Source of the DNA: Dastarcus helophoroides
Lineage: Eukaryota > Arthropoda > Insecta > Coleoptera > Bothrideridae
Length of the DNA stretch: 64,000 nucleotides
Assembly (NCBI GenBank): GCA_028583605.1
Contig: CM053328.1
Span: forward strand, 846,501 to 910,500
Reading direction: 5' to 3'
Made by a program: the position numbers and the translations under genes. Shown here piece by piece: positions 6,216-61,700 of the stretch. Under the pieces are notes generated by a model. It did not search any database. It had not been told where the DNA came from and was given only the letters and a program-made list of their open reading frames with translations. Position 1 is the stretch's first letter. Each line of letters begins with the position of its first letter.

Positions 6216-7113
6216 TTGGAGTTGAAATTAGTTTTAAAGGTTTTCTAAGAGATGGCGTTGTAAACGTATGTTGCATGTGGGCACTCCAAAACTATATTCG
6301 CGCCAAAGCACTATATTATAGCTTGGATTGTCAGTATGTGTCATCTTGCGCAAGTGTAAACAAAGTGTAAACAACATACATTCCAAGACCATTCAATATG
6401 TCAACTTTCGTGCCGAATCAGCGCAATTTGCGGGAAGCTTTATTGCTCTGTTTCCATTTGAAGAGAACTGTTGCTGCGATGAAAAGTGGATCCATTACGA
6501 TAACCCCAAACGTAAAAAATCGTATGGATACCCCGGCCACACATCGTCATCAACGCCAAGACCGAATATCCATGGATCCAAGCTCATGCTCTGTGTTTGG
6601 TGGGATCAGCTGGGCATCATTTATCATGAGCTGCTCAAACCGAACGAAACCATCACCGGGGACCTTTACCGAACACAATTGATGCATTTGAGCCGCGCAT
6701 TGAAGGAAAAACGGCCGCAATTCGAGCAGCGGCACGACAAAGTCATTTTGCAACATGACAACGCTCGTCCTCATGTCACAAAACCCGTCAAAAAGTACTT
6801 GGAAACGTTGAAATGGGATGTTCTACCGCACCCGCCATATTCCCCAGATATTGCCCCGTCCGATTACTACTTGTTCCGATCGATGGCACATGACTTGGCT
6901 GACCAGCACTTAACCTCTTACGAGGAAACGAAAAAATGGATCGATACATGGATCGCATCAAAAGACGAACTGTTCTTCCGACCTGGTATCCGAAAATTGA
7001 CAAAAAGATGGGAAAAAGTAGTGGACAATATTTTTAAAAATCGATTTGTAACCATTTTTGCTCAATAAAGCCTCAAATTTAAAAAAAAAACCTTTAAAAC
7101 TAATTGCAACTCC
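6216..7113 (+). mobile_element. Internally deleted mariner element
   Basis: Terminal inverted repeats of about 28 bp bound the element: left 6216-6244 (ggagttgaaattagttttaa) and right about 7086-7113 (ttaaaactaattgcaactcc), differing at one internal base. A TA stands directly left of the left repeat; the right flank reads TGG, so a TA duplication is not intact. At about 0.9 kb the copy is shorter than a full mariner (about 1.3 kb), because the N-terminal third of the transposase gene is missing. It cannot encode its own mobilisation but could be moved in trans if the ends work. Confidence 0.85.
6398..7068 (+). pseudogene. Mariner transposase pseudogene, internal deletion with frame change
   Basis: The start at 6398 (MSTFVPNQRNLREALL...) matches the beginning of mariner transposases of the irritans-type group. 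After about 26 codons, near 6472-6478, the sequence jumps to the catalytic domain in another frame. The DNA-binding helix-turn-helix region, normally more than 100 residues, is therefore deleted. The remaining catalytic part is well kept: first Asp in DEKWIHYDN, second in LQHDNARPH, third in PDIAPSDYYLF, the D,D34D arrangement of mariner. It ends normally with a stop and aataaa-like bases at 7064-7070. An open frame exists from 6328 through the catalytic part, but it reads non-homologous residues before the junction. The transposase normally cuts and pastes the element at TA; this copy lacks end recognition and is judged dead. Confidence 0.88.
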
Positions 7114-7252: not shown

Positions 7253-8480
7253 AATTTTCGTTTCAGAAGAGATTCGCTACTCAAATGGTGAACAGACTAA
7301 GTTACTATGCTCTTAGTCTTAGAAGTTACTAAGCTCTTCTATCATATCTGTCTTGTCCTTTGTACTAATTTTTATTCCAGAAGAGTTTGATCGCTGGAAT
7401 GGTGGATATACTGAGTTACTATGCTCTTCTGTCTTATTTGTCTTGTTCGTTGTACTAATTTTCATTCCAGAAGACTTTATCCTCTGGAATGGTGAACATA
7501 TTGACTTATTATACTTTTGTCTTATCTATCTTGTCCTTTGTACCAATTTTCATTTCAGAAGACTTTCGCCTCTGGAATGGTGGATATACCAAGTTGGTGT
7601 GTTTTTTTGTCTTATTTGTCGTGTCCTTTGTACTAATTTTCATTTAAGAAGAGTTTCTTCTGTGGAATGGTTGACATACTGGGAATTACTATGCTCTTCT
7701 GTCTTATTTGTCTTGTTCGTTGTACTAATTTTCATTCCAGAAGACTTTATCCTCTGGAATGGTGAACATATTGACTTATTATACTTTTCTGTCTTATCTA
7801 TCTTGTCCTTTGTACCAATTTTCATTTCAGAAGACTTTCGCCTCTTAAATGGTGGATACACCGAGTTGGTGTGTTTTTCTGTCTTATTTGTCGTGTCCTT
7901 TGTACTAATTTTCATTTCAGAAGAGTTTCTTCTGTGGAATGGTGGACATACTGAGAATTACAATACTCTTCGGTCTTATTTGTCTTGTTCTTTGTACTAA
8001 TTTTCATTCCAGAAGACTTTAGCCTCTGGAAGGGTGAACATATTGACTTATTATACTTTTCTGTCTTATCTATCTTGTCCTTTGTAACAATTTTCATTTC
8101 AGAAGACTTTCCCCTTTGGAATGGTGGATATACCAAGGTGGTGTATTTTTTTTTTGTTTTATTTGTCGTGTCCTTTATACTAATTTTCATTTAAGAAGAG
8201 TTTTTTCTGTGGAATGGTGGACATATTGGGAATTACTATGCTCTCCTGTCTTATTTGTCTTGTTCTTTGTACTAATTTTCATTCCAGAAGACTTTAGCCT
8301 CTGGAATGGTGAATATTGACTTATTATACTTTTCTTTCTTATCTATCTTGTCCTTTGTAACAATTTTCATTTCAGAAGACTTTCCCCTTTGGAATGGTGG
8401 ATATACCAAGGTGGTGTATTTTTTTGTCTTATTTGTCGTGTCCTTTGTATTAATTTTTATTTCAGAAGAGTTTGCCTTAG
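7253..8480 (+). repeat. 90-bp tandem repeat in trimeric higher-order units
   Basis: Monomers of 87-93 bp start with cagaaga at about 7265, 7377, 7468, 7556, 7648, 7738, 7829, 7918, 8011, 8100, 8190, 8287, 8373 and 8463. From 7468 on they cycle through three variants (A: tatacttttctgtctt; B: ggtggtgt or gttggtgtg; C: ggaattactatgctct). The higher-order unit is 270, 273 and 276 bp in successive copies. Open frames follow from the period on both strands: 215 codons at 7353-8000 (+), and three of 82-92 codons on the minus strand. They are judged by-products. Three exact 90-bp relatives lie at 30591-30829. Confidence 0.85.
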
Positions 8481-8482
8481 AA

Positions 8483-8810
8483 TGGTGCATTGCCGAGGAG
8501 CTCAAATGAGAGCAAAACATCGATATCCAATGCTACAACTTTTTTAAATTTTTTTACATTTTCATATTTTCATAATTTACTTTAATTCATGTCCAATTTT
8601 GGTCTTCCATGTCATATTTTTTCCTTATTCTGTGTAATAAACTAACCTATTTTTGACAGCTGTTATGAGTTGTCGTTTTAAGAATTTACATATCAATTGT
8701 AGTCATATTTTAAAAATTGTTTAAGAATGTTGTCAACTTTTATTACTAACAATTAAATATTTCCAAACTGCTGTAAAAACATGTTAAATAAAATTAATAA
8801 TGATTATATC
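8483..8810 (+). mobile_element. P1 retroelement end (sense), directly after the 90-bp array
   Basis: Starts with the hammerhead-like motif at 8485-8535 and runs through body sequence shared with the 18558 copy on the other strand (ggtcttccatgtcatatttt, taaactaacct, gtcgttttaagaattta). It ends with the family terminus ccaaactg...atgttaaataaa near 8765-8795. It is more diverged than the copies at 26236 and 27755. No coding frame. Confidence 0.7.
8485..8535 (+). ncRNA. Decayed type I hammerhead ribozyme motif (P1)
   Basis: Stem I GCATTG (8487-8492) pairs with CAATGC (8528-8533). The core reads CCGAGGA instead of CTGANGA (8493-8499). Stem II is GCTC/GAGC around the 6-nt loop AAATGA (8500-8513). 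The second core is AAAA instead of GAAA (8514-8517). Stem III is the near-palindrome ACATCGATAT (8517-8526), then C8527 as the cleavage-site base. Two core substitutions (U4C, G12A in standard numbering) should abolish activity. The fold is otherwise kept and matches the motif at 18877-18924. Confidence 0.65.
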
Positions 8811-11643: not shown

Positions 11644-11718
11644 CTGTTTTTTTCAATTTATTTAACATTAATTGAAAAAAACATAATATTTCCGGTCAAT
11701 AAGGGTCTACCATGAAGA
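11644..11718. mobile_element. Very short P1 insertion with 13-bp TSD
   Basis: A 75-bp insertion flanked by ATAACATAGGCGT at 11631-11643 and 11719-11731. It consists of two opposed P1 end fragments: ttcaatttatttaacatt, then aattgaaaaaaacataata and ccggtcaataagggtctac. Confidence 0.8.
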
Positions 11719-13071: not shown

Positions 13072-13185
13072 TCATTCTTCATGGTAGACCCTTATTGACC
13101 GGAAATATTATGTCAACAAACCATAAAAATTTAAATATTTCCAAACTGGGCCGAAGAAATGTTAAATAAATTGAAAAAAAAAACA
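13072..13185 (+). mobile_element. P1 insertion with inverted tail and 12-bp TSD
   Basis: Begins with the inverted tail (ttcttcatggtagaccc, ttgaccggaaatattatg), joined to a sense P1 end (caaccataaaaattta in shorter form, ccaaactgggccgaag, aataaattgaaaaaaa). Exact target duplication TTCATATTTCGC at 13060-13071 and 13186-13197. Confidence 0.82.
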
Positions 13186-14731: not shown

Positions 14732-14883
14732 ACGGTGATGGTCAACGAAACCAAAAGTTTACCCCTTATCGGGAATCGCTAAATGCACCTAAAGTTTTCA
14801 CTTCAAAACTTAGGTGTTCATAGGGGCTGCTGATAGCAATGAAAATTTAAAAAATTAAAATAAAAATGATTAATTGTAAATAT
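14732..14883. other. Short spacer before the first solo LTR
   Basis: The first bases (cggtgatggtcaacg) look like the continuation of the SINE-like repeat interrupted by the hAT element; the rest is AT-rich and unassigned. Confidence 0.4.
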
Positions 14884-15208
14884 TGTAATAAAATGTAATT
14901 ATAAAGTTTAGTTGGACATTTTCTAGAAAATTTGATAAGGGAAAGCGGCCGCGATAACAAATCAACGTTCCAGAAATTTCGGCAAACGATGAGTCCTTAT
15001 CTGCTTGTTCCTTCTAGAACCCGAAGCGGGACCTATATAAGTCGGTCGGCTTTTCCTCAGTTAGTTAGAAGTCAATGAATAAGTTAGTTAATTAAACAAT
15101 GTGTAGTTGGTCAGTAAATGAATTACAAGTGTAGTGTTCCAGAATCAGTTGGAAATAAAGTGGTTACAATTCACAAGTGTTAATCATTCGAGCTGATAAC
15201 GCGCAACA
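14884..15208 (+). mobile_element. Solo LTR 1, TSD ATAT
   Basis: Starts TGTAATAAAATG and ends CGCAACA, flanked by ATAT (14880-14883, 15209-15212). Family landmarks: AAGCGGCCGCGATAAC (14943), ACCTATATAAGTCGG as a TATA-type promoter (about 15030), TTCTAGAA, and AATAAAG as a poly(A) signal (about 15165). The 4-bp duplication and TG...CA ends fit a Ty3/gypsy-type retrotransposon. No internal region adjoins it. Confidence 0.88.
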
Positions 15209-15347
15209 ATATAAATTCACTCTAAAGTAATACTAATACGTGTTCCAGAATCAGTTGGAAATAAAGTGGTTACAATTCATAAGTGTTAATCATTCGAACT
15301 GGATAACGCCCAACAATATAAATTTCACTCTAAAGTAATACTAATAC
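15134..15347 (+). repeat. 106-bp tandem duplication across the LTR 3' border
   Basis: The 3' third of solo LTR 1 plus about 30 bp of flank (gtgttccagaatcagttgg ... actaatac) is repeated head to tail with period 106 (15134 and 15240). Because the flank is included, the duplication happened after the LTR inserted. Confidence 0.85.
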
Positions 15348-16189: not shown

Positions 16190-16193
16190 GTAT

Positions 16194-16559
16194 TGTTACG
16201 TGCTTTATCGGTTCGAATTGATTAACACGTGAATTGAATAATACCCACGTTATTTTCAAATTCAACTCGGATCACCACAACTGAACAATTAACTCACTTA
16301 TTATTGCCTTCTGCTAACTCACTAACTACACTGACTCTAACTAACTTCCTCGAGGGAAAGCTGACCGCCTTATATAGTTTTGGCTCCCGGCTTCTAGAAC
16401 TTTTCGGTAGATAAGGCTTATCGTTTGCCGAAATTTCTGCTTATCTGCCGTTTGTTTCGTTATCGCGGCCGCTTTCTCCTTATCAGATCCTTCTAGAAAC
16501 TTTTCTTATGTACTAAATCCTTTTCTAAATTCTATTCTATCTATTTACATTGCGTTACA
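16194..16559 (-). mobile_element. Solo LTR 2 (minus), TSD GTAT
   Basis: Reads TGTTACG...GCGTTACA on the plus strand, flanked by exact GTAT (16190-16193, 16560-16563). Reverse-oriented landmarks: GTTATCGCGGCCGCTTTC, GCCTTATATAGTTTTG, CTCGAGGGAAAG. Same family as the other six LTRs, of the longer 360-380-bp subtype. Confidence 0.9.
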
Positions 16560-17226: not shown

Positions 17227-18876
17227 GAGTGGCGACTCGTAGCCAAAACTAATGGGGGTGCTGCTTAGCGTTTTAAAATTTTTAAGATTTCGACTGAAAA
17301 TTTCGACATTTTCGAAACGTTACTTTTCGAAAATTTTAGATTTCTTTGAAAACTTGACAATGAAAATTTTTGGTAATATGGCGTTTTTTGAAAGGTTGGA
17401 TTTTTTTCCAAATTTCGACTGTATTGCAAAATTTGAATTTTTTCTTGTAATCTCGAACTTGTTTTATTTTTAAGTATTGACTTTTCTGAAAAACTGTGAA
17501 TACTCTTTTAAAAATTTCCGTATTTTCGTAAATATTTAGAATTTTCAGTGTTCTGTTTTTTGTAATTTTTTTTGAAAATTAATTATTACATTTTTTAAAA
17601 TTTTTACCATTTGGACATTCTTACTTTTTCTGAAAATGTAAATTTTTTCAAGACTGGACTTTTGACTTTTTAAATTTTCGACTTTTTTCTAATCATCTTT
17701 GTTTATAATTTTTTTCTGAAAAATTATAATTTTTTTTTATTGAAAATTATGATTCTTAATAATTTTGACTGGTTTTTATTTGAATGTCCACTATTTCTCA
17801 AAACTTCGACTTTTTTTGAAAAGTTTCGATTATTTTTTGATATTTTTTGTTGAAAATTTCGCTACTTCTTAATTTTCGAACGTCTCAAAATTTCGATTTT
17901 TTTGAAATTTTATAAAATGTTTGACATTTTTTAAAATTTTAATTTTTTTAACCTGAAATTTAAACTTCTTAAAAAAATGTTCCACCTTGATTCAAAATTT
18001 TAACTTCCAAAAATTTAAACTTTTTTCAAAATTTTAACTTCCCAATATTTCGATTTTTGAAAACCTCGATATATCAGAAATCTTCACTTATTTTCAATAT
18101 TCCGGTTTCGAAAATTTTGTTTTATATTGAAAAGTTGAGTGCCAATTTCCCAACTATTCAATTCAAAATTTAAACCTTTTTCACATTTCGAATTATTTCG
18201 TAAATTCGATAAAAATTCTCAAATCTTTTGCAAATTTTGAGATTTTTTTTATATCGACTATAAAATTTCGACCTTTTCTTTTAAGAATTTCTTCTTTTGC
18301 AAAATTTTGACTTCTTTTGGAAATTTGAAAGATTTTGAAAATTTTTGCCTTATCAACAAGTTTCGACTTCTTTATTGAAAATTTTTCTCAATGTGCATTT
18401 TTTTGAAATTTTCGACTTTTTATTTTAATTCCCACTTTGTTGAAAATTCCGACCTTTTTCAAATGTTCGAATTTTCAAAATCTTGATCATTTTCCAAAAT
18501 TTGAAAGTTTTGGAAAACTTAAAAATTTTGACTATTTTTTATTACAACTATTTTCAAATTCTTCATGGTAGACTCTTATTGACCGGAAATATTATGTTCT
18601 TTTCAATTTATTTAACAATTCTTCGGCCCAGTTTGGCAATATTTAAATTTTTATGGTTTGTTGACAATTTTATAAACAGTTTTTGAAATGCGACTACGTG
18701 ATATTTAAATTTATTGAAATCGTCACTTCATGACAGTTCACAAATTAAGAGGTTAGTTTATTTTACATAGAATAGGAATAATCAAAAATAGAAGACCAAA
18801 AATTAGATATGGAAAAATAAAAATTTGTTATTTTGATAAATTAGGAAAATATAAAAATACATAAAAAAGGCTTGTA

Positions 18877-18924
18877 GCACTGGACATCGATGTTTCGCTC
18901 TCATTTGAGCTCGTACAGCAGTGC
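18877..18924 (-). ncRNA. Type I hammerhead ribozyme motif with one inserted core base (P1)
   Basis: On the minus strand: stem I GCACTG (18924-18919) pairs with CAGTGC (18882-18877). The core reads CTGTACGA (18918-18911), which is CTGACGA with one extra T. Stem II is GCTC/GAGC with loop AAATGA. GAAA is intact. Stem III is the perfect palindrome ACATCGATGT (18093-type length, 18893-18884 on the reverse) and the cleavage-site base is C (18883). A palindromic, loop-less stem III is typical of hammerheads that act as dimers in Penelope-like elements. The inserted base in the core probably weakens or stops cleavage. Confidence 0.72.
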
Positions 18925-18939
18925 ATAACATGGAAAGGG

Positions 18940-19722
18940 AACCTAACCTAACCTAACCTAACCTAACCTAACCTAACCTAACCTAACCTAACCAACTAAC
19001 CACCTAACCTAACCTAACCTAACCTAAACTAACCTAACCTAACTAACTACCTAACTAACTAACCTAACCTAACCTAATCTACCTAATCTAACTACCAAGC
19101 TCTGAAGTCTCTTCCGGACCAAGTTGGCAAATACTTTGGAGCAATAGTCAATTACATGTTTAAGTACCTAACCTAACCTAACCAACCTAACCTAACCTAA
19201 CCTAACCTAACCTAACCTAACCACACCTAACCTAACCAACCTAACCTAACCTAACCTAACCTAACTTAATCTAACCTAACCTAACTAAACCAACCTAACC
19301 TAACCTAACCTAACCTAACCTAACCTAACCTAACCTAACCTAACCTAACTAACCTAACCTAACCTAACCTAACCTAACCTTACCTAACCTAACTTACCTA
19401 ACCTAACCTAATCTAACCTAACCTAACCTAACAACCTAACCTAACCAACCTAACCTAACCTAACCTAACCTAACCTAACCTAACCTAACCTAACCTACCT
19501 AAACCTAACCTAACCTAACCTAATCTAACCCAACCTAACCTAACCTAACTAACCTAACCTAAACTAACCTAACCTAACCTAACATAACCTAACCTAACCT
19601 AACCTAAACCTAACCTACCTAACCTAACCTAACCTAACCTAACCTAACCTAACCTAACCTAACCTAACCTAACCTAACCTAACCTAACCTAACCTACCCA
19701 ACCTTAACGTAACCTAACCTAA
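18940..19722. repeat. Interstitial telomere-type (CCTAA/TTAGG)n array
   Basis: Tandem CCTAA pentamers, i.e. TTAGG on the minus strand, the ancestral arthropod telomere repeat. There are scattered single-base variants and a unique interruption at about 19097-19167. The array lies between P1 sequence and A-rich DNA inside the hAT-like element, so it is interstitial and not a chromosome end in this assembly. Confidence 0.95.
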
Positions 19723-24264: not shown

Positions 24265-24268
24265 ATAC

Positions 24269-24627
24269 TGTTGCGGGCTTATCGGTTTGAATTGATTATT
24301 AACACGTGAATTGAATAATAACCACTTTATTACCAAACTAAACTCGGAACACTACAACTGGATAATGATCTCACTTATTACTTCTAAATACTTAGTTCAC
24401 TAATTACACTGATTGACTCTAACTGACTGACTCGAGGGAAAGGCGTCCGCCTTATATAGTTTTTGCTTCCGGGTTCTAGAAGTTTTGGGCATATAAGGCT
24501 TATCGTTGGCCGAAATTTCTGGAACGCTTATCTGCCGTTTGCTTCATTATCGCGGCCGCTTTCCCTTATCAGATCTTTCCAGATACTTTTCTTACGTACT
24601 AAATTCTACAATTTACATTTCGTTACA
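24269..24627 (-). mobile_element. Solo LTR 3 (minus), TSD ATAC
   Basis: Plus-strand ends TGTTGCGGG and CGTTACA, flanked by exact ATAC (24265-24268, 24628-24631). Landmarks: CTTATATAG, TTCTAGAA, TTATCGCGGCCGCTTTCCC. No internal retrotransposon sequence adjoins. Confidence 0.9.
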
Positions 24628-24631
24628 ATAC

Positions 24632-26235: not shown

Positions 26236-26603
26236 CTTATTCTTCATGGTGGACCCATTATTGACCGGAAATATTATGTTTTTTTCAATTTATTTAACAT
26301 TTCTTCGGCCCAGTTTGGAAATATTTAAATGTTTTATGGTTTGTTGACAATTTTCTAATTTATCAAAAATACAAAATTTTTATTTTTTCCATATCTAATT
26401 TTTGGTCTCCTATTTTTCATTATTCCTATTCTATGTAAAATAAACTAACCTCTTAATTTGTGAACTGTCATGAAGTGACGTTTTCAATAAATTTAAATAT
26501 CACGTAGTCGCATTTTAAAAACTGTTTAGAAAATTGTCAACAAACCATAAAAATTTAAATATTTCCAAACTGGGCCGAAGAAATGTTAAATAAATTGAAA
26601 AAA
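26236..26603 (+). mobile_element. P1 insertion with long inverted tail, 11-bp TSD
   Basis: An inverted P1 end of about 110 bp (tcttcatggtggaccc ... tggtttgttgacaatttt) precedes a 5'-truncated sense body (aatttttggtctcc, gtgaactgtcatgaag, catcacg-type block) ending ccaaactgggccgaag ... ttgaaaaaa. Duplication ACAGATTTGTT at 26225-26235 and 26604-26614. No coding frame and no ribozyme, because the 5' part is missing. Confidence 0.82.
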
Positions 26604-27220: not shown

Positions 27221-30200
27221 CAGTGGCGGCTCGTAGACAAAACTAATAGGGGGTGCTGCGACAATGTGTAGCGTTTTATGTGTGATCCAAAATGTCGATT
27301 TCTTCAAAATTTTAACTTTCTCTGATTTCAACTAAAAATTTCGACATTTTCAAAATGTAACTTTTCGAAAATTTTAGATTTCTTAGAAAACTTGACAATG
27401 AAAATTTTTGAATAATGTCGCATTATTTGAAAGACTGGATTTTCTCCAAATTTCGATTGTATTCCAAAATTTAGACTTTTTCTTATGATTTCAATTTTAT
27501 TTTATTTTTAGGTATTGACTTTTCTGAAAAATCTGTGTATATTCTTTCAAAAATATCCCTATTTTCGAAAATATTTAAACTTTTCGGTGTTTTCTTTTAT
27601 GATTTTTTTTAAATTAATTACATTTTTTCAAAATTTTCACCGTTTGAAAATTTTTTACGTTTTCTATAAATGTCAAATTTTGGAAAACTGGACTTTAGAC
27701 TTTTTAAATTTTCGATCTTTTTAAAATATCAAAATTTCATCCATTTCTTTTTTTATTCTTCATGGTAGACCCTTATTGACCGGAAATATTATGTTTTTTT
27801 CAATTTATTTAACATTTCTTCGGCCCAGTTTGGAAATATTTAAATTTTTATGGTTTGTTGACAATTTTATAAACAGTTTTTGAAATGCGACTACTACTAC
27901 TACTAATTTTTGGTCTCATATTTTTCATTATTCCTATTCTATGTAAAATAAACTAACCTCTTAATTTGTAAACTGTCATGAAGTGACGTTTTCAATAAAT
28001 TTAAATATCACGTAGTCGCATTTCAAAAACTGTTTATAAAATTGTCAACAAACCATAAAAATTTAAATATTTCCAAACTGGGCCGAAGAAATGTTAAATA
28101 AACTTGAAAAAAACATTTCTTTTTTTTTTTGAGAAATTATATTTTTATTGAGAATTTCGATTCTTAATAACTTCGACTGTACTTTTAGTATCAAACATTT
28201 TTCAAAATTTCGACTATTTTTGTGCAAATTTCAATTTTTTGAAATAGAGACACTTTTTGTCGACTTTTTTCACATTTTCGACTATTTTTGTTTTTTTTTT
28301 AATTTGGCTACTTTTTAATTTCCAAAATTATTTCAAAATTTCGATTTTTTTTTAAATCTTTACGTTTTATGAAAAGTTTAACATTTTTTTTTAATTTTAA
28401 TTTTGTTGACCTAAAATTTCAATTTTTAAAAAAATGTTCAACTTTGGTTCAAAATGTTAGCTACCAAAAATTTTAACTTTTTTCAAACTATTAACTTCAC
28501 AATATTTGGACTTTTGAAAACCTCGATCTATCTGATAACTTTTGTCTTGTTTTCAATATTTCGGTTTTAAAAATTTTGATTTTTATTAATAATGTGAGTG
28601 AAAATTTCCCAATTATTCAAAATTTAAACTCTTTTAAAATTTTAAATTAAAATTTAATTTAATTTAAACTTTTTTAAAATTTCGAGTTATTTTAAAAACT
28701 CGATAATAATTCTCAGATCTTTTGAATGTGTCTACTTTTTCAAAGTTTTGATATGTTTTTTAATTTCGATTATAAAATTTTTGACCTATTTGTTTGAAAA
28801 TTTCTTCATTTTCATAATTTTGACTTCTTTTGGAAAATTGAAAGTTTTTGAAAATGTTTGCCTTATCCTCAAGTTTTTATATATTTCGTATATTCCTCAA
28901 AATTTAGAAAAATCAAAGTGTCAAAAAATTTTGGCATTTTCTTGAAAATTTTAGCCTTTCCTTAAATCTGAACTTTTCTAAAATTTTGGACCTTTTTTTA
29001 ATTTCCACTTTATTGAAAATTTCCGGTTTTTCAAATGTTCGAATTTTTCAAGATTTAGGCCATTTTTCAAAATTAAAATTGTTTGGCAAACTGAAAAATT
29101 TCGTCTATTTTTTTAATTTCAACTATTTTCAAAATTTCGACATTCTTAGCAAACTGTCGATCCTTTATTTGAAAATTTTGATTTTTCTTTAAAGTGAGAC
29201 ATTTCCTTAAAACTTCGTAAAATTTGGAAATTCTTAAAATTTGGAATTTTTCTAAAAATTTCGATTTCATTTAAAAAGGTCTACTTTTTTTTCAAAATTT
29301 CAACTCTTTTTGAAAATTTGACTTTTTTTTTAAAAAGTCCGAACTTTTTTCAAAATATTATTTATAATTTTTGTTTGAACATTTCCAATTCAATCTTCAA
29401 CTTTTAAAAAAAGTGAGTTTTTATTAAAATAAAAAGCTCATTTTTTTTCTTTCAAATTTAAAAATTTGAAGTACTCAAAATTTTCGACTTTTTCCAAAAT
29501 TTTACCTTTTCAAAATTTCAACCTTTTTGATAATTAAAATTTTTTTGAGTTTTCTCCAAGATTCAAAAATTTAGCTTCTTTAAAAATTTAATTAAAAATT
29601 CTGCAATTTATTTTAATGTCGATATTTTTTCAAAATATTGCCTTTTTCCATTCGCAAAATTATTGAAAATGTTTTAAAAATTTAAAATAAATTTTTTCCC
29701 AAAATATTAACTTTTTTTAAAATCCTTATTTTCTTTTGGAAATTTCACTTTCTATGAAAATTTCGAAATTTTTAAAAATTTCACTCTTTTTCAAAATTCT
29801 CTGATAACTTTGACTGGTAATTTGTTTCTTTTTAAATTAAAATTTTTTTGTATTATTATTATGTTTATTATTTATTTATTTATTTATTATTATTATATTA
29901 AAATGAATATTACTTCCAGTAACAAAAATTTTGATTTTTAAAATTGTGCGAAGCTTTAAAACAAATTTCGAAAAAAAAACTTGCAGTTTATACATATACA
30001 AATAAAAATTTAAATTTTAATCTCAAAATATTGACTTCAAGCATTAAATTGTTGATTAATTTTTTGCAACACTTTGATTGCTTTTAATTTCGAAATTTTT
30101 GAAACTTTTCTTGAATTGGTGACTCTCTTCACTTTAGCAAAGTCGAAATTTTATGAATATTTTTGACAATTAATTTATTTTTAAAAATTGTTTTTTTTAG

Positions 30201-33264: not shown

Positions 33265-33646
33265 TCCCAACGCAATGTAAATAGATGGAATAGAATTTAG
33301 AATAGAATTTGTAGAATTTAGTGCATAAGAAACGTTTCTAGAATGATCTGATAAGGGGAAAGCGACCGCGATAACGAAGCAAACGGCAGATAAGCGTTCC
33401 CGAAATTTCGGCAAACGATAAGCCTTATCTGCCGGATTGTTCTAGAACCTGGATGCCAAAACTATATAAGGCGGTCAGCTTTCCCTCGAGTCAGTCAGTT
33501 AAAGTCAGTGTAATTAGTGAGTTAGTAGAAGTCAATAATAAGTGAGTTAATTGTTCAATTGTGGTGATCCAAATTTAGTTTAGTAATAAAGTGGGTATTA
33601 TTTTTAATTCACGTGTGAATCAATTCGAACCGATAAGTCCGTAACA
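33265..33646 (+). mobile_element. Solo LTR 4 (plus), left end mutated
   Basis: Closely matches the 43714 LTR: ACGCAATGTAAATAGATGG near the start, ACCGCGATAACGAAGC, CTATATAAGGCGGTCAGC, ACCGATAAGTCCGTAACA at the end. The first bases read TCCCAACG in place of TGTAACG and no 4-bp duplication is evident. Confidence 0.85.
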
Positions 33647-34209
33647 CTACATTTCCAAAATTAAATTTTGTTTCGAAGTTTCCGATTCGTCTGTGAAAAT
33701 TCGACTGTTTTTAGAAAGTTTTAACTGTTTTTGAAATCAAATATTTCCATCGAAGATTTCCTTTCCACATCCAAACGTCGATTTTTTTTTGAAGTTGCCG
33801 ATTCAATTTTAAAATTTCAAATTTCTTTTTAAAAGTTCGGTGTTTTCAAAATTGCAATCTTTAATGTACCGTTTGAAGTTTCACGTCGAAATTTTCCTTG
33901 TTTTTCCTCAAAATGTCGATTACATTTCCAAATTTAAATTTTGTATCAAGATTTCTGTTTTTCGAAAATTGTACCTTTTCAATAAAATTTCAATTTTGCA
34001 TTTCAAACGAAGACTATTTCCATCGAAAATTTCCTTTCCTCTAGAAAATATCTTCTTGACATTTTATGTTGGAATTTACATTGTTTTTTCTCAGAATGTT
34101 GATTATCTTCCCAAAATTGAATTTAGTTTCGCTCTAATTTTCTCCAAAAATTCTATATCAAGAAAAAATGATCCCCTTAAAAATGTCTCGAAAATTCTAT
34201 TTTTTTGGA
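33647..34209. other. AT-rich low-complexity sequence
   Basis: Runs of the TTTCCAAAATT/TCGAAA type. The 128-codon frame at 33840-34226 is rich in Phe, Ser, Lys and Ile as expected from such sequence and has no domain. Confidence 0.5.
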
Positions 34210-34268
34210 ATTCAATTCTATTCTAATGCACAGACCAATAGGTTTGAACATTTATTAGATTCAAATTT

Positions 34269-34302
34269 TGGTTTCGATCTTGTTAGATCTCGTCAGTTTG
34301 GT
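34269..34302 (-). ncRNA. Truncated hammerhead motif in the inverted P2 fragment
   Basis: On the minus strand ACCAAA, core CTGACGA, stem II GATC/GATC around TAACAA, and GAAAC are intact. The sequence then skips the second half of stem III, the cleavage site and the 3' strand of stem I seen in the sister copy. It cannot cleave but confirms the stem II sequence by comparison. Confidence 0.75.
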
Positions 34303-34642
34303 ATATCCAACTCGAATGCTAACAAATGTTCCGACAAGAAAGTACTAAAATATTCACAGGCGTCCATTAGAATCCTTGTCTTCTGGGAACTTTCCTAGGG
34401 AGCAACCGCTTCGCTAGGTGGAAGTGTTTTAACTGTTTGTAGTTCAGCTACCTATGATTCACTATACTCGCTTGGAGGGCTGCATGAATTTTTAGTCTAG
34501 GTTGCATTCTACTTGCATACGACATTGTTGGCGATGGCCATAGTTTCTCTATGGACCAATAGGTGGTAGTACTAAGAGTCACTCGCTTGATGCCTGTGAA
34601 TATTTTAGTACTTTCTTGTTGGAACATTTGTCAGCATTCGAG

Positions 34643-34699
34643 TTGGATATACCAAACTGACGAGATATAACAAGATCGAAACCGGTATTTGGTTTCCAA
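34643..34699 (+). ncRNA. Type I hammerhead ribozyme, all core bases intact (P2)
   Basis: Outer stem I TTGGA/TCCAA (34643-34647, 34695-34699), internal loop TAT/T, inner stem I ACCAAA/TTTGGT (34651-34656, 34688-34693). Core CTGACGA (34657-34663). Stem II GAT/ATC (34664-34666, 34675-34677); the sister copy has a fourth G-C-type pair here. Loop TAACAA region, GAAA (34678-34681), stem III ACC/GGT (34681-34686) as a palindrome with no loop, A34687 as the base 5' of the cleavage site. Every conserved position of the hammerhead consensus is met. Known Penelope-like and retrozyme hammerheads share the minimal stem III and act best as dimers. Likely role: self-processing of the element's RNA. Confidence 0.85.
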
Positions 34700-34905
34700 A
34701 CTTCGAATCTAATAAATGTTCAAACCTATTGGTCTGTGCATTAGAATCCTTGTCTTCTGGGAACTTTCCTAGAGAGCAACCGCCTCGCTAGGTGGCAATG
34801 TTTCAACTATTGGTAGTTTAAGCTATACCTATGATTCACTATACTCGCCTGGAGGGCTGCATGAATTTGTAGTGTAGGTTGCATTCTACTTGCATTCAAT
34901 TCTAT

Positions 34906-35139
34906 GTCAAAATTTTTGTTTTTCCTCAAAATATCGATTATTTTCCCAAAATTAAATTTGGTTTTGAAATAGTCCAATTTCTCCGTGAAATTTTCGATTT
35001 TCTGAAAACAAAAATTGAACATTCATTGACAATTTAGTTTTCTTCACAGCGTGTTGTGACAAAATATTTTAGAATTTTGGTCATCAAGACTTTGTTAGCT
35101 GTAATGTTATGCAAATATTTATGGTGTATAGGAGATATT
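34906..35139. other. AT-rich spacer
   Basis: Continuation of the AT-rich block that P2 interrupted; nothing recognised. Confidence 0.4.
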
Positions 35140-35390
35140 TTGTTGGTGGAACGGATTGATCTTTGATTATGTTCGAAAATTGACATACAAATCTTGTCCC
35201 CTGAAACCAAGAAATATTGAAAGACACAACAATAATTGCTTTAACGCGTTTCGATAGCCAAGCTATCATCTTTAGAGAGATACTAAATATAGAGAGATAC
35301 ATTGAGTACTGTTGACTGTCGTTGACTGTTGACTTGTTGTTTTTTTTTTAAATTTTTCTTGGTTTTAGAGGACAAGGTTTATATTTGATA
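35140..35390. mobile_element. Fold-back element, copy 2, right arm degraded
   Basis: The left arm is well preserved (gaacggattgatctttgatt, cttgtcccctgaaaccaag, cgatagccaagctatcatc). The centre is agagagatact. The right arm is reduced to tttcttggttttagaggacaa near 35355-35375. Confidence 0.65.
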
Positions 35391-35448
35391 TATTGTCTAA
35401 TTTTGTTTTAGTTTATTAATGTCACAGTCTTCTGGTAGTAATTAATAT

Positions 35449-35781
35449 TGTTGCGCGTTATCGGTTCGAATGATTAACACTTTGTGAATTGTAACCACTT
35501 TATTTCCAACTGATTTCTGAACATTACAATTGTAATTCACTAACACTATTTAATTAACTAACTTATTCGTTGACTAACTAATTGAGGGAAAGCCGACCGG
35601 ATCGTCTATCTATAGAATCCGTTCCGGGTTCTAGAAGGAACCAGCAGATAAGACTTATCGTTTGCGGAAATTTCTGGGGCGCTTATCTCCCGTTTGCTTC
35701 ATTATCGCGGCCGCTTCCCCTTATCAAATTTTTCTAGAAACATTCCTTCGGTAATAAATTCTATAATTACATTTTGTTACA
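35449..35781 (-). mobile_element. Solo LTR 5 (minus), TSD ATAT, inserted in a LINE
   Basis: Plus-strand ends TGTTGCGCG and TTGTTACA; exact ATAT at 35445-35448 and 35782-35785. Short subtype with CCGACCGGATCG, TATCTATAGAATCC and TTATCGCGGCCGCTTCC. Its right flank is the LINE fragment below, so it interrupted that copy. Confidence 0.9.
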
Positions 35782-36090
35782 ATATCTATTTTATTGAATA
35801 TTATTTTTAGACTAGCAACTTCTAGAATCTCGAGATCCCGATTAATCGTCTGTATATGCTGTTCCCTTAGTCGATCTGAAGCTGCGATAGATAATGGTTT
35901 GTCGGAGAAAAAATATGACACAATAATACTATCATCTGCGTAGCTGTATATAGGATTGGAAGTTGAAGCTAAGAGACGTTTATGTGTAACAGAAATAGAG
36001 TAGGAGACAGAACAGACCCCTGAGGCACCCCTGCGTTAATCGCAAATGTCTCGGATGAGATGCCATCGACGACGACTTTTTGAAATATTC
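35782..36090 (-). pseudogene. Reverse transcriptase fragment of a non-LTR retrotransposon
   Basis: Minus-strand translation carries the conserved RT blocks VVVDGISSETFAINAG and GVPQGSVLSP (about 36010-36075), and then, in another frame, YADD (35931-35942), the catalytic motif. A single missing base near 35975 shifts the frame between them. Residues after YADD continue to NRDLEILE before the LTR breaks the copy. The wording resembles jockey/CR1-group LINEs, but a 100-residue piece does not fix the clade. Both ends are gone: upstream is AT-rich sequence, downstream the solo LTR. A decayed fragment. Confidence 0.85.
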
Positions 36091-37002
36091 GTACTTTTCC
36101 GAAATGTTCACCATTTTTTAAAATTAAAAATGCGCAAGTTTTGAAAACAGTGGAATATTTGAAAAAGTAGAACTCGAAAAAAATTAGAATTTTCAAAAAA
36201 AATCGAAATTTAAAGAAAGCCGAATTTTCAAAAAGTGGTTTAAATATTCGAAAATAGTCGAAACTCTCTAAAAAGTTAAAATTCTGAAAAAAATAAGATT
36301 TTCATAAAAATTTGTGTATTTGAAAATAAGCTGAAATATTCTAAGAAATTCCAAATTTTCGAAAAAATCGAAAGAAGAATGGCAAATATTAGGAAAATAA
36401 GCCGGAATATTCAAAAAATTCCAAAATTTCGATAAGGTCGAAATTTTAAAAAATAGAAGGTATTTTCAAAAAGCGTCGAAATTTTTAGATAGGGCGCGAT
36501 TCAAGAGTAGAAATTTCAACAAAAAAAAGTTTTAATTTTGACAAAAGTAAAAAGTTTTGAATAAAGTGCATATTTTCAAAAATCGAAGTTTTGAAAAATC
36601 TCCAAAAAAAAGTCGAAAATTAAAGTTTTCAAGAAATGTTAGAATTTTCAAAAAAGTCGAAAATTTGAAAAATGTGATATTAAATTAAAATTTAAAAAAC
36701 TTCGAAACCTTAAAAAATGATCGAAATATTAAAGAATATTTGAAATTCTAAAAAGTTTAAATTTTGAAAAAGCAATTTGGAAATGTTGAAAAAATAAAAT
36801 TTTCAGAAATATTTGAATATTTGACAATAAGGCAAAATATTTTAAAAACATTCAAATTTTCGAAAAAGTCGAAATTTTCAAAAATAGATGAAATTTTCAA
36901 AAAAGTAGTAATTTTATAGAAAAGTCAAAGCTTTAGGGTCGAAATTGTAAAAAAAGTTAAAGTTTTAGTCAAAGATCAAAAGTTTTTAATACACTTCGAT
37001 AT
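36091..37002 (-). repeat. AT-rich quasi-periodic block (GTCGAAA orientation)
   Basis: Repeated aaaaagtcgaaattttcaaa-type words spaced irregularly at about 15-30 bp, the reverse orientation of most such blocks here. No frame of interest. Confidence 0.6.
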
Positions 37003-37005
37003 TTT

Positions 37006-37395
37006 TGTTGGGCGTTATCGGTTCGAAGATTAATACTGCGTGAACTGTAACCACTTTATTTCCAAAGTGAACTCCGAACACCTACAATTGTAATTTACCA
37101 ACTGAATAATTAATAAACTAACTTATTTATTGACTAACTAACTGAGGGAAAGCCGACCGGATCGTCTATCTATAGAATCCGTTCCAGGTTCTAGAAGGAA
37201 CCTGCAGATAAGACTTATCGTTTGCGGAAATTTCTGGGGCGTTTATCTGCCGTTTGCTTCATTATCGCGGCCGCTTCCTCTTATCAAATTTTTGTAGAAA
37301 CATTCCTTTGGTACTAAATTCTATAATTACATTTTGTTACAATATCTATTTCATTGAATATTATTTTTAGACTAGCAACTTCTAAAATATTAATT
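37006..37395 (-). mobile_element. Solo LTR 6 plus LINE flank, duplicate of 35449-35832
   Basis: LTR at 37006-37341 (TGTTGGGCG ... TTGTTACA) nearly identical to LTR 5. The next 50 bp (attgaatattatttttag, actagcaacttct) are the same LINE fragment that flanks LTR 5. The right ATAT is present but the left flank is TTTT, so this is better explained as a copied segment than as an independent insertion. Confidence 0.8.
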
Positions 37396-42889: not shown

Positions 42890-43709
42890 ATGTCAGCTCT
42901 TTGAAAATTTCGAATTCTTCGAAAATTTTGGCTTTTTTTTGAAAATCTCAACTTTTTTGACAATTTCGACGTCTTGAAACTTTGAACTGTTTTAGAAAAT
43001 TATGAATTTTTTGAGGAATATGATTTGTATGATAATTTCGACTTTTCCTTATTTAGTTTTGAAAATTTCGAGTTTTCTTGACAATTCCTATTTTTTGATA
43101 CATATTTTTAACTTTTTTTTTAAATATCTAGTTTTTCTTGAAGAATTGGACATTTTTAATTTCTACTTTTTTAATGATTTCGACTTGACATTTTAAAATG
43201 TCCACTTATTTCAAATTCTCATTAAAAAAACAGGAAAATTTTGATTTAATTAGAAAATGGTAGCAATTTTAAAATTTTCCCTTTTTCTAGGATAGTGCTA
43301 TTTTTAGAACTTCCTAATTTTTCAAAATTTCAACTTTCTCAGGAAATTTTTATTTTGTTGTAGATCTCGACTTTCTTTAAAAAATTCTGCTTTTTTGACA
43401 ATTTCGACATTTTAAAAAGGTGAACAAACGAATAATTCCGACCAGGTCAACATTTTCGAAAATTTGAATTGTTAAAAAATAAGTCGAAATTATTAACCGA
43501 AGTTTAAAAAAAAGACAACATTCCAAAAGACACGAATTCAAAGAAAAAAGGTAAACATTTTGTGAAAATTTAGAAAAAAGTTGCCTCAAAGTCAAATTTT
43601 TCGAAAAAAGTTGAATTTTGAGAGTAAAGCCGAAGTGCCAACAAAGAATTTTCAAAGAAAATTCGTAATTTCGAGAAAAGACTGTGCTTTCGTATCTTTG
43701 TAGAAAAGT
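42890..43709. repeat. AT-rich quasi-periodic block, orientation switching near 43380
   Basis: First TTTCGACTTTT-type, then GTCGAAA-type words. The 150-codon minus frame at 43377-43829 runs into the LTR and is a by-product. Confidence 0.55.
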
Positions 43710-43713
43710 ATAT

Positions 43714-44087
43714 TGTAACGCAATGTAAATAGATGGAATAGAATTTAAAATAGAATTGTAGAATTTAGTATATAAGAAAAGTTTCCAGAAAGATCTGATA
43801 AGGGGAAAACGGCCGCGATAACGAAACAAATGGCAGATAAGCGTTCCAGAAATTTTGGGGAACGATAAGCCTTATCTGCCGAAAAGTTCTAGAAGCCAGG
43901 GGCCAAAACTATAAAAGGCGGTCAGCTTTTCCTCGAGTCAGTCAGTTAGAGTCAGTGTAATTAGTGAGTTAGTAGAAGTTAATAATAAGTAAGTTAATTG
44001 TTCAACTGTGGTGATTCAAGTTAAGTTTGGTAATAAAGTGGTGTAATTCACACGTGGTAATAAATTCGAACCGATAAGCCCGTAACA
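43714..44087 (+). mobile_element. Solo LTR 7 (plus), TSD ATAT
   Basis: TGTAACG...CGTAACA with exact ATAT at 43710-43713 and 44088-44091. Landmarks: GGCCGCGATAACG, AACTATAAAAGGCGGTC (promoter), CTCGAGTCAGTCAG, GGTAATAAAGTGG (poly(A) signal), CACACGTG. The best complete example of the long subtype (374 bp). Confidence 0.92.
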
Positions 44088-56829: not shown

Positions 56830-59800
56830 CGAGAAAACTCATCAATATTGCTAAAATTTTCCATAAAATATTTTCTAAAATTAATAATTTTTCTACTGGA
56901 GATCCTCAAGCAAATTAATTTTGACTCACAAACTCGCTGGTGGATGAATCCATTAATATTGCATGTATTTGTTTGTCGCTAAATATTCTTCTATAATTCA
57001 CAATTATCCCCTTGGTGTATCCTAAACATAATAATATTTCACTAAAATGTTGTGAATTTGATAATTCATCAGTATTACGAGGTTTTTCCCACGAAATATT
57101 CTCTACAACTCGTAATTTCTTTAATGGAGATCATCAAATAAATCTTGACTCAAAAACTTGCTCATTAGATAGTTCATCAGTGTGGCAGGCATTTGGCCCG
57201 TAAACATTCTCTAAAATTCGAAATTTTCGTCTTGGAGGATCATGAATAATTTCATTTTGTTGTTTAATAATTCATCAATGTTGCGATAATTTTCGAATAA
57301 ATATTCCATAAAATTCATAATTTCTCTATTGCAAATCCTCAACCAAACCAATTTTAAATAAAAAACTTGCTTACTGGTGAGTTCATCAGTATTGCATACA
57401 TTTTGTCGTTGAATATTTATTTTTAATTCACAATTGTCCTCTTGGAGGTTCCCGAACAAAATAATATTTCACTTAAGGGTTGCGAATTCGAAAATTCATC
57501 AGTATTGCAAGGTTTTTCCCATGAAACATTCTCTACAACTCCTAATTTCTTTAATGAAAATCAATCAAATAAATCTTGTCTCAAAAACTTGATTATTAGA
57601 TAGTTTATCAGTATGGCAGGCATTTTGCCGCTAAACATTCTCTAAAATTCAAAATTTTCGACTTGGAGGATCATGGATAATACATTTTTTCACTAAAATG
57701 TTGACTGTTAAACAATTTATCAATGTTGCGTAAATTTTTCTATTAAATATTCCCTAAAATTGATAATTTCTCTATTGAAGATCGTTAACCAAAGTAATTT
57801 TAAATCAAAAACTTGGTTACTAGCGAGTTCATCAGTATTGCATGCATTTTGCCGTTAAATATTCTCTTTAATTAACGATTATCCTTTTGGAGGAACCCAA
57901 ACAAAGTAACATTTCATTTAAGTGCTGCGAATTCGATAATTCATCAGTATTGCAAGGTTTTTCCCATAAAACATTCTCTACAACTCGTAATTTCTTTAAT
58001 GGAAATCAATCAAATAAATCTTGACTCAAAAACTTGTCTATTAGATAGTTCATCAGTGTGGCAGGCATTTGGCCCGTAAACATTCTCTAAAATTCGAAAT
58101 TTTCGTCTTGGAGTATCATGAATAATTTCATTTTTTACTAAAATGTTGGCTGTTTAATAATTCATCAATGTTGCGATAATTTTCCATTAAATATTCCATA
58201 AAATTCATAATTTCTCTATTGCAAATCCTCAACCAAACCAATTTTAAATAAAAAACTTTCTTACTGGTGAGTTCATTCGTATTGCATACATTTTGTCGTT
58301 GAATTTTTTTTTAAGTCACAATTGTCCTCTTGGAGGTTCCCGAACGAAATAATATTTCGCTTAAGGGCTGCGAATTCGAAAATTCATCAGTATTGCAAGG
58401 TTTTTCCCACGAAACATTCTCTATAACTCGTAATTTCTTTAATGAAAATCAATCAAATAAATCTTGTCTCAAAAACTTGATTATTAGATAGCTTATAAGT
58501 ATAGCAGGCATTTTGCCGCTAAATATTCTCTAAAATTCGAAATTTTTCACTTGGAGGATCATGGATAATATATTTTTTCATTAAAATGTTGACTGTTTAA
58601 CAATTCATCAATGTTGCGAGAATTTTTCTATTAAATATCCCCTAAAATTGATAATTAGTGTGTTCATCAGTATTGCATGAATTTTGTCGTTAAATATTCT
58701 CTTTAATTCACGATTGCCCTTTTGGAGGAACCCAAACAAAATAATATTTCGCTTAAGTGCGGCGAATTCGATAATTCATCAGTATTGCAAGATTTTTCCC
58801 ACGAAACACTTTCTACAATTCGTAATTTCTTTAATGGAAATCAATGAAATAAATCTTGACTCAAAAACTTGATTATTAGATAGTTCATCAATATGGTAAG
58901 CATTTTATCGCTAAACATTCTCTAAAATTACATTTGGAAGGTCATGGATAATACGTTTTTTCACTAGAATGTTAACTGTTTAATAATTTATCAATGTTGC
59001 AAGAATTTCTCCAGTAAATATTTTCCAAAATTCATAATTTCTCTATTGCAGATCCTCGACTAAACTAATTTTAAATCAAAAACATGCTTACTGACGAGTT
59101 CATTATTATTGCATGCATTTTGTCGTTAAATAATCTCTTTAATTCACAATTGTCCTCTTGGAGGCTCTCGAACAAAATAATATTTTACTTAAGTGCTGCA
59201 TATTTGATCATTCATCAGTATTGCGAGGTTTTTCCCATGAAACATTCTCTACAACTCGCAAATCCGTCAACCAAAAAAATTTTGACTCAAAATTTGCTTA
59301 TTAGAGAATTCGTCGTAGAGAAATTCGAAATGGTTCTGTCCTATTTTTTCTGGATCAGGAATTCTCAACCAAGTCGTAGACAATCGAAGAAAGTTTAGCA
59401 ATGTTGCCCGTATTTTGCGGTTCAGTATTCCCTATAATACACAATTGTCCTTTTGGAGGAACCCAATCAAAATAATTTTCCACTAAAGTGCTGCGAATTC
59501 GATAATTCATCAGTATTGCTAGGTTTTTTTCACGAAACATTCTCTACAACTCGCAACTTCGTCAACCAAAAAAATTTTGACTCTAAAATTTGCTTATTAA
59601 AAAATTCGTCGTAAAGAAATTCGGAATGGTCCTGCCCTGTTTTCTCTGGATTGGAAATTCTTAACCAAGTTGAAGGCAATCGAAGGAAGTTTATCAATAC
59701 TGCCTGCATTTTGCGGTTCAATATTCTCTATAATTCACAATTGTCCTCTTGGAGGTTCCAGAACAAAATAATATTTTACTAAAGTGCTGCAAATTCGATC

Positions 59801-61700
59801 ATTCATCAGTATCGCAAAGTTTTTCCCACGAAACATTCTCTACAACAAGCAATTTCGTCAACCAAAAAAAATTTGACTCAAAAACTTGCGTATTAGAGAA
59901 TTTGTCGTAGAGAAATACGAAATGGTCCTATCCTATTTTTTCTGGATTCAAAATCCTTAACCAAGTCGAAGACAATCGAAGAAAGTTTAGCAATATTGCC
60001 CGTATTTTGCGGTTCAATATTCCCTATAATTGACAATTGTCCTTTTGGAGGAACCGAAACAAAATAATATTTCACTAAAGTGCTGTGAATTCGATAATTT
60101 ATCCGTATTGCAAGGTTTTTTTCACAAAACATTCTCTACAACTCGTAATTTCTTTAATGGAAATTAATCAAATAAATCTTGATTCAAAACCCTGATTATT
60201 AGATAGTTCATCAGTATAGCAGGCATTTTGCCGCTAAACATTCTCTAAAATTCGAACTTTTTCACTTGGAGGATTATGTATAATATATTTTTTCACTAGA
60301 ATGTTGACTGTTTAATAATTTATCAATGTTGCAAGATTTTGTTTATTAAATATTGCCCAAAATTCATAACTTCCCTATTGCAGATCCTTAACTAAAATAA
60401 TTTTAAATGAAAAACTTGCTTACTGGTGAATTCATTAGTACTGCATGCATTTTGTCGTTAAATATTCCCTTTAATTTACAATTGTCGTCTTGGAGGTTCC
60501 CGAACAAAATAATATTTTACTAGAGTGCTGCAAATTCGATAATTCATCAGTATTGATATGGATTTTCCTCAATATATTCTCTATAACTTGCTTATTAGAT
60601 GGTTCATCAGTATGGCAGGCATTTTGCCTCTAAACATTCTATAAAATTCGAAATTTTCCACTTGGAGGATCATGGATAATATATTTTTTTATTAGAATGT
60701 TGGCTGTTAAATAGTTTATTAATGTTGCGAGAATTTCCCCATTAAATATTCCCTAAAATTCATAATTTCTCTATTGCAGATCCTCAACCAAGTTAATTTT
60801 AAATCAAAAACTTGTTTACTGGCGAGTTCTTTAGTATTGCATGCATTTTGTCATTAAATATTTTCTTTCATTCACAATTGTCCTCTTGGAGGTTTCCGAA
60901 TAAAATAATATTTCACTAGTGCTGCAAATTTGATAATTCGTCAGTATTGCTAGGTTTTCCCCCGAAATATTCTCTACAACTGGTAATTTTTTTTGGAGAT
61001 CAATCAAACAAATTTTGACTCAAAAACTTGCTCATTAGACAGTTCATCAGTATTGCAAAAACTCGAAGTTTTCCTCTTGAAGGAGCGTGCATAATATATT
61101 TTTTCAGTAAAATGTTGGGTGTTGAACAATTCAAATTAATTTTAATTAAAAAAATTGCTTACTGGTGGGTTCATCAGTATTGCATGCATTTTGTCATTAA
61201 ATATTCTCTTTAATTCACAATTGTCTTTTTGGAGGTTCCCGTACAAAATAATATTTTACTAAGATGCTGTGAATTCGATAATTCATCAGTATTGCAAGGT
61301 TTTTCCCAGGAAACTTTCTCTACAACTCGCAATTTCGTCAACAAAAAAAGTTTGACTTTAAAACTTGCGTATTAGAGAATTTGTCGTAGAGAAATTCGGA
61401 ATGGTCGTCCTATTTTTCCTGGATTCGGAATCCTCAACCAAGTCGAATACAATCGAAGAAAGTGAATCAATATATTCCGTATTTTGTGGTTCAAATTCCC
61501 TATAACTTACAATTGTGCTCTTGGAGGGTTTGAACAAGATCACATATCGCCAAAATGTTAGGAATTCGATAATTTATCAGTATTGGAAGGATTTTTCCAC
61601 GAAATATTCTCTACAACTCATAATTGATTTACTGGAGATTTTTAACCAAATAAATTTGGATTTAAAAATTTCCTTATTGGAGTCTAACAGTTACATCTTG
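56830..61700 (+). repeat. Satellite: about 110-bp monomers in tetrameric higher-order units
   Basis: A landmark ttcatcagtattgca or variant recurs at about 57065, 57174, 57270, 57382, 57494, 57604, 57715, 57827 and 57940, i.e. every 96-113 bp. Four monomer types cycle: A ggtttttcccacgaaaca, B ggcaggcattttgccgct, C gttgcgagaatttttctatt, D gcatgcattttgtcgtta. The tetramer period is about 430-446 bp. From about 59280 extra monomers with ggtcctgccctgttttctc-type text break the order. Short frames (57211-57459, 59084-59398 and others) are by-products. Confidence 0.9.

Follow-up and report, generated by a model that had tools for sequence, protein, structure and literature searches.

Architecture of the 34222-34893 insertion

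The 64-kb window, the whole stretch of DNA that was analysed, contains a 672-bp insertion at 34222-34893 (forward strand) that holds about 1.8 units of a repeat of about 374 nt, in the order inverted X, Y, spacer, X', Y. Segment X (34222-34364, minus strand) aligns as an inverted copy of 34589-34745, and the first 143 bp of the insertion correspond to the equivalent upstream part of the unit, inverted where it stands. The remainder lies on the plus strand and consists of the first direct copy of Y (34362-34518), the single-copy 70-bp spacer of the unit (34519-34588), the direct segment X' (34589-34745), which carries an intact-looking hammerhead, and the second direct copy of Y (34736-34893), which forms the 3' end; this order was obtained from repeat analysis and alignments. 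X differs from X' by 6 mismatches in 143 aligned bases and one 14-nt gap, and the two Y copies, spaced 374-377 bp apart, show 11 differences over 151 aligned bases. The GC content is 40.6% in the unit and 40% in the insertion, compared with 28-29% in the flanks.

A perfect 12-bp target-site duplication, ATTCAATTCTAT, lies directly outside both ends on the plus strand (left copy, 34210-34221; right copy, 34894-34905), and it delimits the small mobile element in which the first-pass annotation had placed the hammerhead. Among random pairs spaced 60-700 bp apart, 200000 drawn from 32-36.2 kb yielded 7 identical 12-mers and 200000 drawn from the window yielded 69, and a liberal search round both ends of random intervals, which also catches many tandem repeats of the window, reached a duplication of at least 12 bp in 46 of 3000 cases. 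The fit of the duplication to both repeat boundaries is a stronger argument than these 12-mer controls. When the flanks were joined and compared with the upstream target repeats, some local alignments crossed the joint, at 63-66% identity only and in AT-rich DNA, so that the empty site is a tentative one.

The insertion contains no frame of more than 60 codons (the longest stop-to-stop frame has 60), and the reverse transcriptase plus GIY-YIG frame of an autonomous Penelope-like element (PLE) was not found within it. No further copies of the element were found in the window. Two exact patterns taken from it gave 0 matches among viral contigs, which weighs little because that collection is not of animals, and a pattern with 19 specified bases matched three genome contigs, all from prokaryotic MAGs, where about two matches are expected by chance. 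The host repeat of the insertion spans 33309-35766 and has inverted repeats at its ends (33309-33487 and 35584-35766), with three stretches that are 70-86% complementary; these ends recur at 14877-15221, 16190-16556, 24266-24630, 37005-37388, and 43717-44087.

The hammerhead motif and its predicted folds

The motif at 34643-34699 (plus strand) has a type I layout with three stems and a complete core, the open ends lying in stem I and stem III being present as a palindrome only. The core consists of CTGACGA (34657-34663), GAAA (34678-34681), and A34687, with no base missing. Stem I comprises 11 bp in two perfect helices, an inner one of 6 bp (34651-34656/34688-34693) and an outer one of 5 bp (34643-34647/34695-34699), separated by a 3x1 internal loop; both are Watson-Crick paired throughout, in agreement with the 6-bp and 5-bp helices described before. 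Stem II has 3 bp, GAT/ATC (34664-34666/34675-34677), followed by an A-G mismatch and one T-A pair. The mismatch was absent from the first-pass annotation, whose coordinates for CTGACGA, GAAA, ACCGGT, and A34687 proved correct when the sequence was read again. The palindromic, loop-less stem III reported there, ACCGGT, is present at 34681-34686. Both the internal loop of stem I and loop II are present, and cleavage is predicted 3' of A34687. The motif is a well-formed type I hammerhead that was probably active in the past.

A sister hammerhead half was identified by sequence comparison within the inverted segment X, at 34253-34296 on the minus strand. An earlier claim of a sister copy (given there as 34269-34302) that keeps the core and has lost the cleavage half is borne out, with the copy lying on the minus strand. 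The sister copy has the same core as 34643-34699 and an unbroken 5-bp stem II (GATCT/AGATC); nothing of the cleavage half is left after the 14-nt deletion, which covers the second half of stem III, the site of cleavage, and the 3' strand of the inner stem I. With its second ribozyme inverted and damaged, the insertion probably cannot release a monomer by itself.

The descriptor specified a type I hammerhead with zero core mismatches, a minimum of 3 bp in each of stems II and III (the latter may be a palindrome), and a core-adjacent stem I of 4 bp or more. It matched once in the 64-kb window, at 34643-34699, where the inner stem I has 6 bp. In 3696 shuffles of the window that preserved its dinucleotides, the descriptor matched 14 times; stem I reached 5 bp or more in 7 of these matches and 6 bp or more in a single one. 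These counts are conservative because the descriptor takes account of neither the outer helix of stem I nor the sister copy. An equally good match thus arises once in 3696 shuffled windows, which upholds the proposal that a chance co-occurrence is unlikely, and a chance origin of the motif was rejected by this test.

A covariance-model match above the Rfam threshold, set beforehand as a test of the hammerhead, was not found, the scan giving zero matches for 34643-34699 at the gathering threshold. The best family over the element was RF02275 (Hammerhead_HH9), with 27 bits against a gathering score of 52, and membership in this family as curated was rejected accordingly. The alignment spans model positions 1-77 of 77, with E-values of 0.00023 over 850 bases and 0.017 over the 64-kb window. 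These E-values alone carry little weight because microRNA families that also fall below the threshold reach comparable or better values in these scans (mir-146, 0.0099 over 850 bases; MIR5048, 5.3e-07 over the window). The descriptor test is better evidence for the motif than the Rfam E-values.

For a single strand of 34643-34699, a rival fold is favored in the predictions, with -11.5 kcal/mol compared with -7.8 kcal/mol for the hammerhead fold without stem III and -2.3 kcal/mol when stem III is closed by its single A-U pair; ACCGGU folding on itself can form one A-U pair closing CCGG and nothing more. The rival fold ties up the innermost base of stem I and the core CTG as well as some of stem III, and the pair probability of the innermost stem I pair in the single strand is 0.18. 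Two strands folded together reach -26.7 kcal/mol versus 2 x -11.5 kcal/mol; their ACCGGU palindromes are paired as a shared 6-bp stem III and both stems I form in trans, whereas stem II is drawn differently and core bases are taken. The two-strand model, in which both ACCGGU palindromes join as stem III, supports the suggestion made earlier that the ribozyme probably acts as a dimer. Amphibian hammerheads with a one-pair helix III and a palindromic tetraloop are described as poor alone and better as dimers (PMC7229834; here and below, the cited papers are represented by the portions available to us), and the dimer-favored fold predicted for 34643-34699 parallels them.

Folded as a circle, the 374-nt unit is predicted at -107.4 kcal/mol, compared with -86.1 +/- 5.4 kcal/mol in 200 shuffles, none of which was as low (z = -3.9, 68% paired). 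The ribozyme region of this predicted circle adopts the rival fold.

A second hammerhead family in the window

Two further hammerhead-like motifs belong to a different repeat, here called family B. One lies at 18860-18933 on the minus strand (HH9, 30.2 bits) and has one extra core base; the other lies at 8478-8550 on the plus strand (22.2 bits), with substitutions in the core and in GAAA. Both scores are below the threshold of 52, and in the whole-window scan the former exceeds the score of 27 of 34643-34699. Each motif is situated at the upstream end of its repeat, and these are the only two copies that reach the ribozyme. Their stems I show one compensatory difference, C-G versus T-A, and a single change between one pair of copies provides slim evidence for this stem.

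Nine family B loci were counted in the window (8486, 11662, 12551, 13074, 18594, 26239, 27755, 37541, and 61782). The query matched 22 stretches, 12 of which make up the nine loci; the ten left out comprise seven at 58-70% identity (near 491-691, 900-1119, 12137, 17660, 17757, 50514, and 51233), two stretches whose 40-45 matching bp all lie beyond the tail (1028-1072 and 29094-29133), and a 39-bp stretch at 82% (43299-43337). Opposite-strand alignments at 57-64% identity at 8486, 12551, 37541, and 61782 were not taken as second arms. Exact duplications of 12-13 bp flank five of the nine loci, namely 11662 (13 bp), 12551, 13074, 26239, and 27755, and locus 37541 has a 10-bp duplication; at 8486, 18594, and 61782, no duplication of at least 7 bp was found in the basic search radius, and none of at least 9 bp in a wider radius with one end corrected.

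Four of the loci have two arms in opposite orientation and appear as shortened insertions with 12-13-bp duplications: 11644-11718 (locus 11662, where the second arm is only 23 bp long, at 95.7% identity), 13072-13185, 26236-26602, and 27755-28113. In all four, one arm ends near position 345-354 of family B and the other at about 382-385, at the border of the duplication, leaving a tail of about 36 bases on one side only. This resembles the one-sided tail of Penelope elements, which is 31 bp long and sits on one of the inverted repeats (PMC3846280). Family B and the 34222-34893 insertion have the 12-bp duplication and the inversion in common; the latter has its inverted 5' part, and the tail, sought there by eye, was recognized in family B only. 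Family B may be a retrozyme or else the terminal repeat of a PLE.

The family B hammerhead at 18860-18933 adjoins an array of about 159 imperfect AACCT/TTAGG units (18940-19722), a 5-base repeat which we take to be the insect-type telomere repeat. A literature search combining hammerhead ribozyme, telomere, and TTAGG returned nothing on the subject, judged by title. Telomeric capping is described for endonuclease-lacking PLEs (PMC3846280). A Terminon-like, telomere-attached element at 18860-18933 was considered and dropped because the array reads TTAGG on the strand of the element's 5' end, the orientation opposite to that expected for capping by a PLE.

Origin of the insertion and its place in the window

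The sequence of the element supports the PLE- or retrozyme-like nature suggested for it earlier, and we consider it quite probable that 34222-34893 is one insertion of the non-coding, non-autonomous non-LTR retrozyme kind of animals. Retrozyme-like repeats have been published in animals, including crustaceans and insects, as repeats with type I hammerheads and units of 150-450 bp (Cervera and de la Pena 2020, PMC7229834). The insertion agrees with them in its hammerhead type and in its unit size of about 374 bp, in low GC content, the lack of a long frame, and a duplication longer than 4 bp, and the circle predicted for its unit is likewise more self-paired than shuffles. It departs from them in holding 1.8 units, an incomplete dimer whose first part is inverted in place. 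Its stem III, a 6-nt palindrome, is like that of axolotl HHR_Amex1 and unlike the two-pair invertebrate form, and its predicted circle shows the rival ribozyme fold, whereas in most of the published animal circles the hammerhead can still form (PMC7229834). This rival structure, together with the low weight of the Rfam E-values, slightly lowers our confidence in the retrozyme reading.

A different origin, which we regard as rather unlikely, is that 34222-34893 is the remnant of an autonomous PLE, consisting of two pseudo-LTRs (about 305 bp, X'Y) whose coding part has been lost and which carry a minimal PLE hammerhead. The type I hammerheads of PLEs, in which helix III is minimal or absent, may act in cleavage as dimers (PMC7761336), and the insertion shares with PLEs a nearly loop-less helix III and likely dimer action, as well as an AT-rich target and an inverted 5' part (PMC7761336, PMC11167929). 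The 12-bp duplication would suit such a remnant too, since PLEs combine direct and 5' inverted terminal repeats with short duplications of 8-10 bp (PMC3846280). Unlike in PLEs, however, no coding trace was found in the insertion, neither a reverse transcriptase nor a GIY-YIG frame, and its spacer is only 70 bp; its stem I is split by an internal loop into an inner and an outer helix, its inverted X starts differently from the direct Y, in contrast to the head-to-head inverted pseudo-LTR of PLEs, and no tail of 31-36 bp was recognized by eye.

The tandem Y copies could also suggest a satellite unit of the newt or cave-cricket type, caught locally and rearranged by recombination, and an insect hammerhead satellite is known in Dolichopoda (pDo500, in the source as available to us). 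Such an origin is very improbable: the exact 12-bp duplication borders just under two units, the 64-kb window contains no array of the unit, and a simple satellite was rejected on the strength of the duplication. It is hardly credible that 34643-34699 is a chance or decayed look-alike without a ribozyme past. The sub-threshold Rfam score, in a range that microRNA families also reach, the stem II mismatch, and the rival fold would be in keeping with a look-alike; the shuffle result, a sister copy in which the core is preserved and stem II is better formed, the position of the motif in a retrozyme-like element, and the presence of two more hammerhead-like matches in the same window all argue against it.

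Beyond the motif, the unit structure, the 12-bp duplication, the inverted 5' part, and the absence of a long frame, which are directly observed, we infer a life cycle that includes cleavage, dimer action, a circle, a moment of inversion, and a helper. A multimeric transcript would be cut 3' of A34687 by its own hammerheads, two of which, since stem III is no more than a palindrome, most likely pair via ACCGGU and cut as a dimer. The product of about 374 nt may be circularised and would undergo target-primed reverse transcription at a nicked AT-rich site by an enzyme provided in trans, for which a PLE is the most likely source. A parent RNA of the order X' Y spacer X' Y could then yield a genomic dimer with the first X' flipped in place; the flipped X and the Y after it share about ten bases (CATTAGAAT). 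In L1 biology, 5' inversions are produced by twin-priming-like, two-sided priming during target-primed reverse transcription, and by analogy the in-place 5' inversion would fit this pattern; it is also possible that the inversion was made by a later DNA inversion. The identical units expected just after copying of one circle are not seen, as the divergence of Y (11 of 151) shows, and the divergence of both the X and Y copies indicates that either the insertion is old or it was copied from a linear genomic dimer whose units already differed.

Purified PLE protein performs cleavage and extension on both target strands (PMC11167929), and PLE insertions show 5' inverted repeats with short duplications in addition to direct repeats. 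We tentatively suggest, as a possibility on the doubtful side, that the 12-bp duplication and the 5' inversion were left by a Penelope-type enzyme that primed from two sides on multimeric retrozyme RNA. If true, this insertion and family B, a non-coding hammerhead repeat, would provide direct evidence, in the form of insertion scars, for the mobilisation of animal retrozymes by PLE machinery. PLEs were proposed as helper on the basis of shared type I hammerheads, tandem copies, and co-existence in the defining paper, which in the portion available leaves the enzyme spreading animal retrozymes open, with PLEs as a strong candidate (PMC7229834), and the proposal is repeated in PMC7761336. In a limited search of the literature on hammerheads, retrozymes, and Penelope-like elements, the term "twin priming" was absent among the matches listed. 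Insertion scars (duplication length, inversion, and tail) can be counted genome-wide in retrozymes and PLEs, which makes the question of the helper directly testable; in other respects, the 34643-34699 ribozyme is unsurprising and falls within a known group.

Several other features were recorded in the window, in which ARAGORN found no tRNA genes. A fragment with a weak reverse-transcriptase match lies at 35972-36301 on the minus strand (RVT_1, 21.8 bits, under the Pfam cut-off of 29.6). Long tandem arrays occupy 7324-8487 and 56839-60152, with periods of 90/182/272 bp and 296-445 bp. A Mos1-type mariner transposase frame (6328-7068; Pfam Transposase_1) is shorter than most of its listed relatives and is close to arthropod mariners: the organisms named in the best 120 of 3425 relatives are arthropods, most entries being nameless. 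Taken with the TTAGG-type array, this makes an arthropod host the most likely one for the window, and an insect probable. Mariners cross species.
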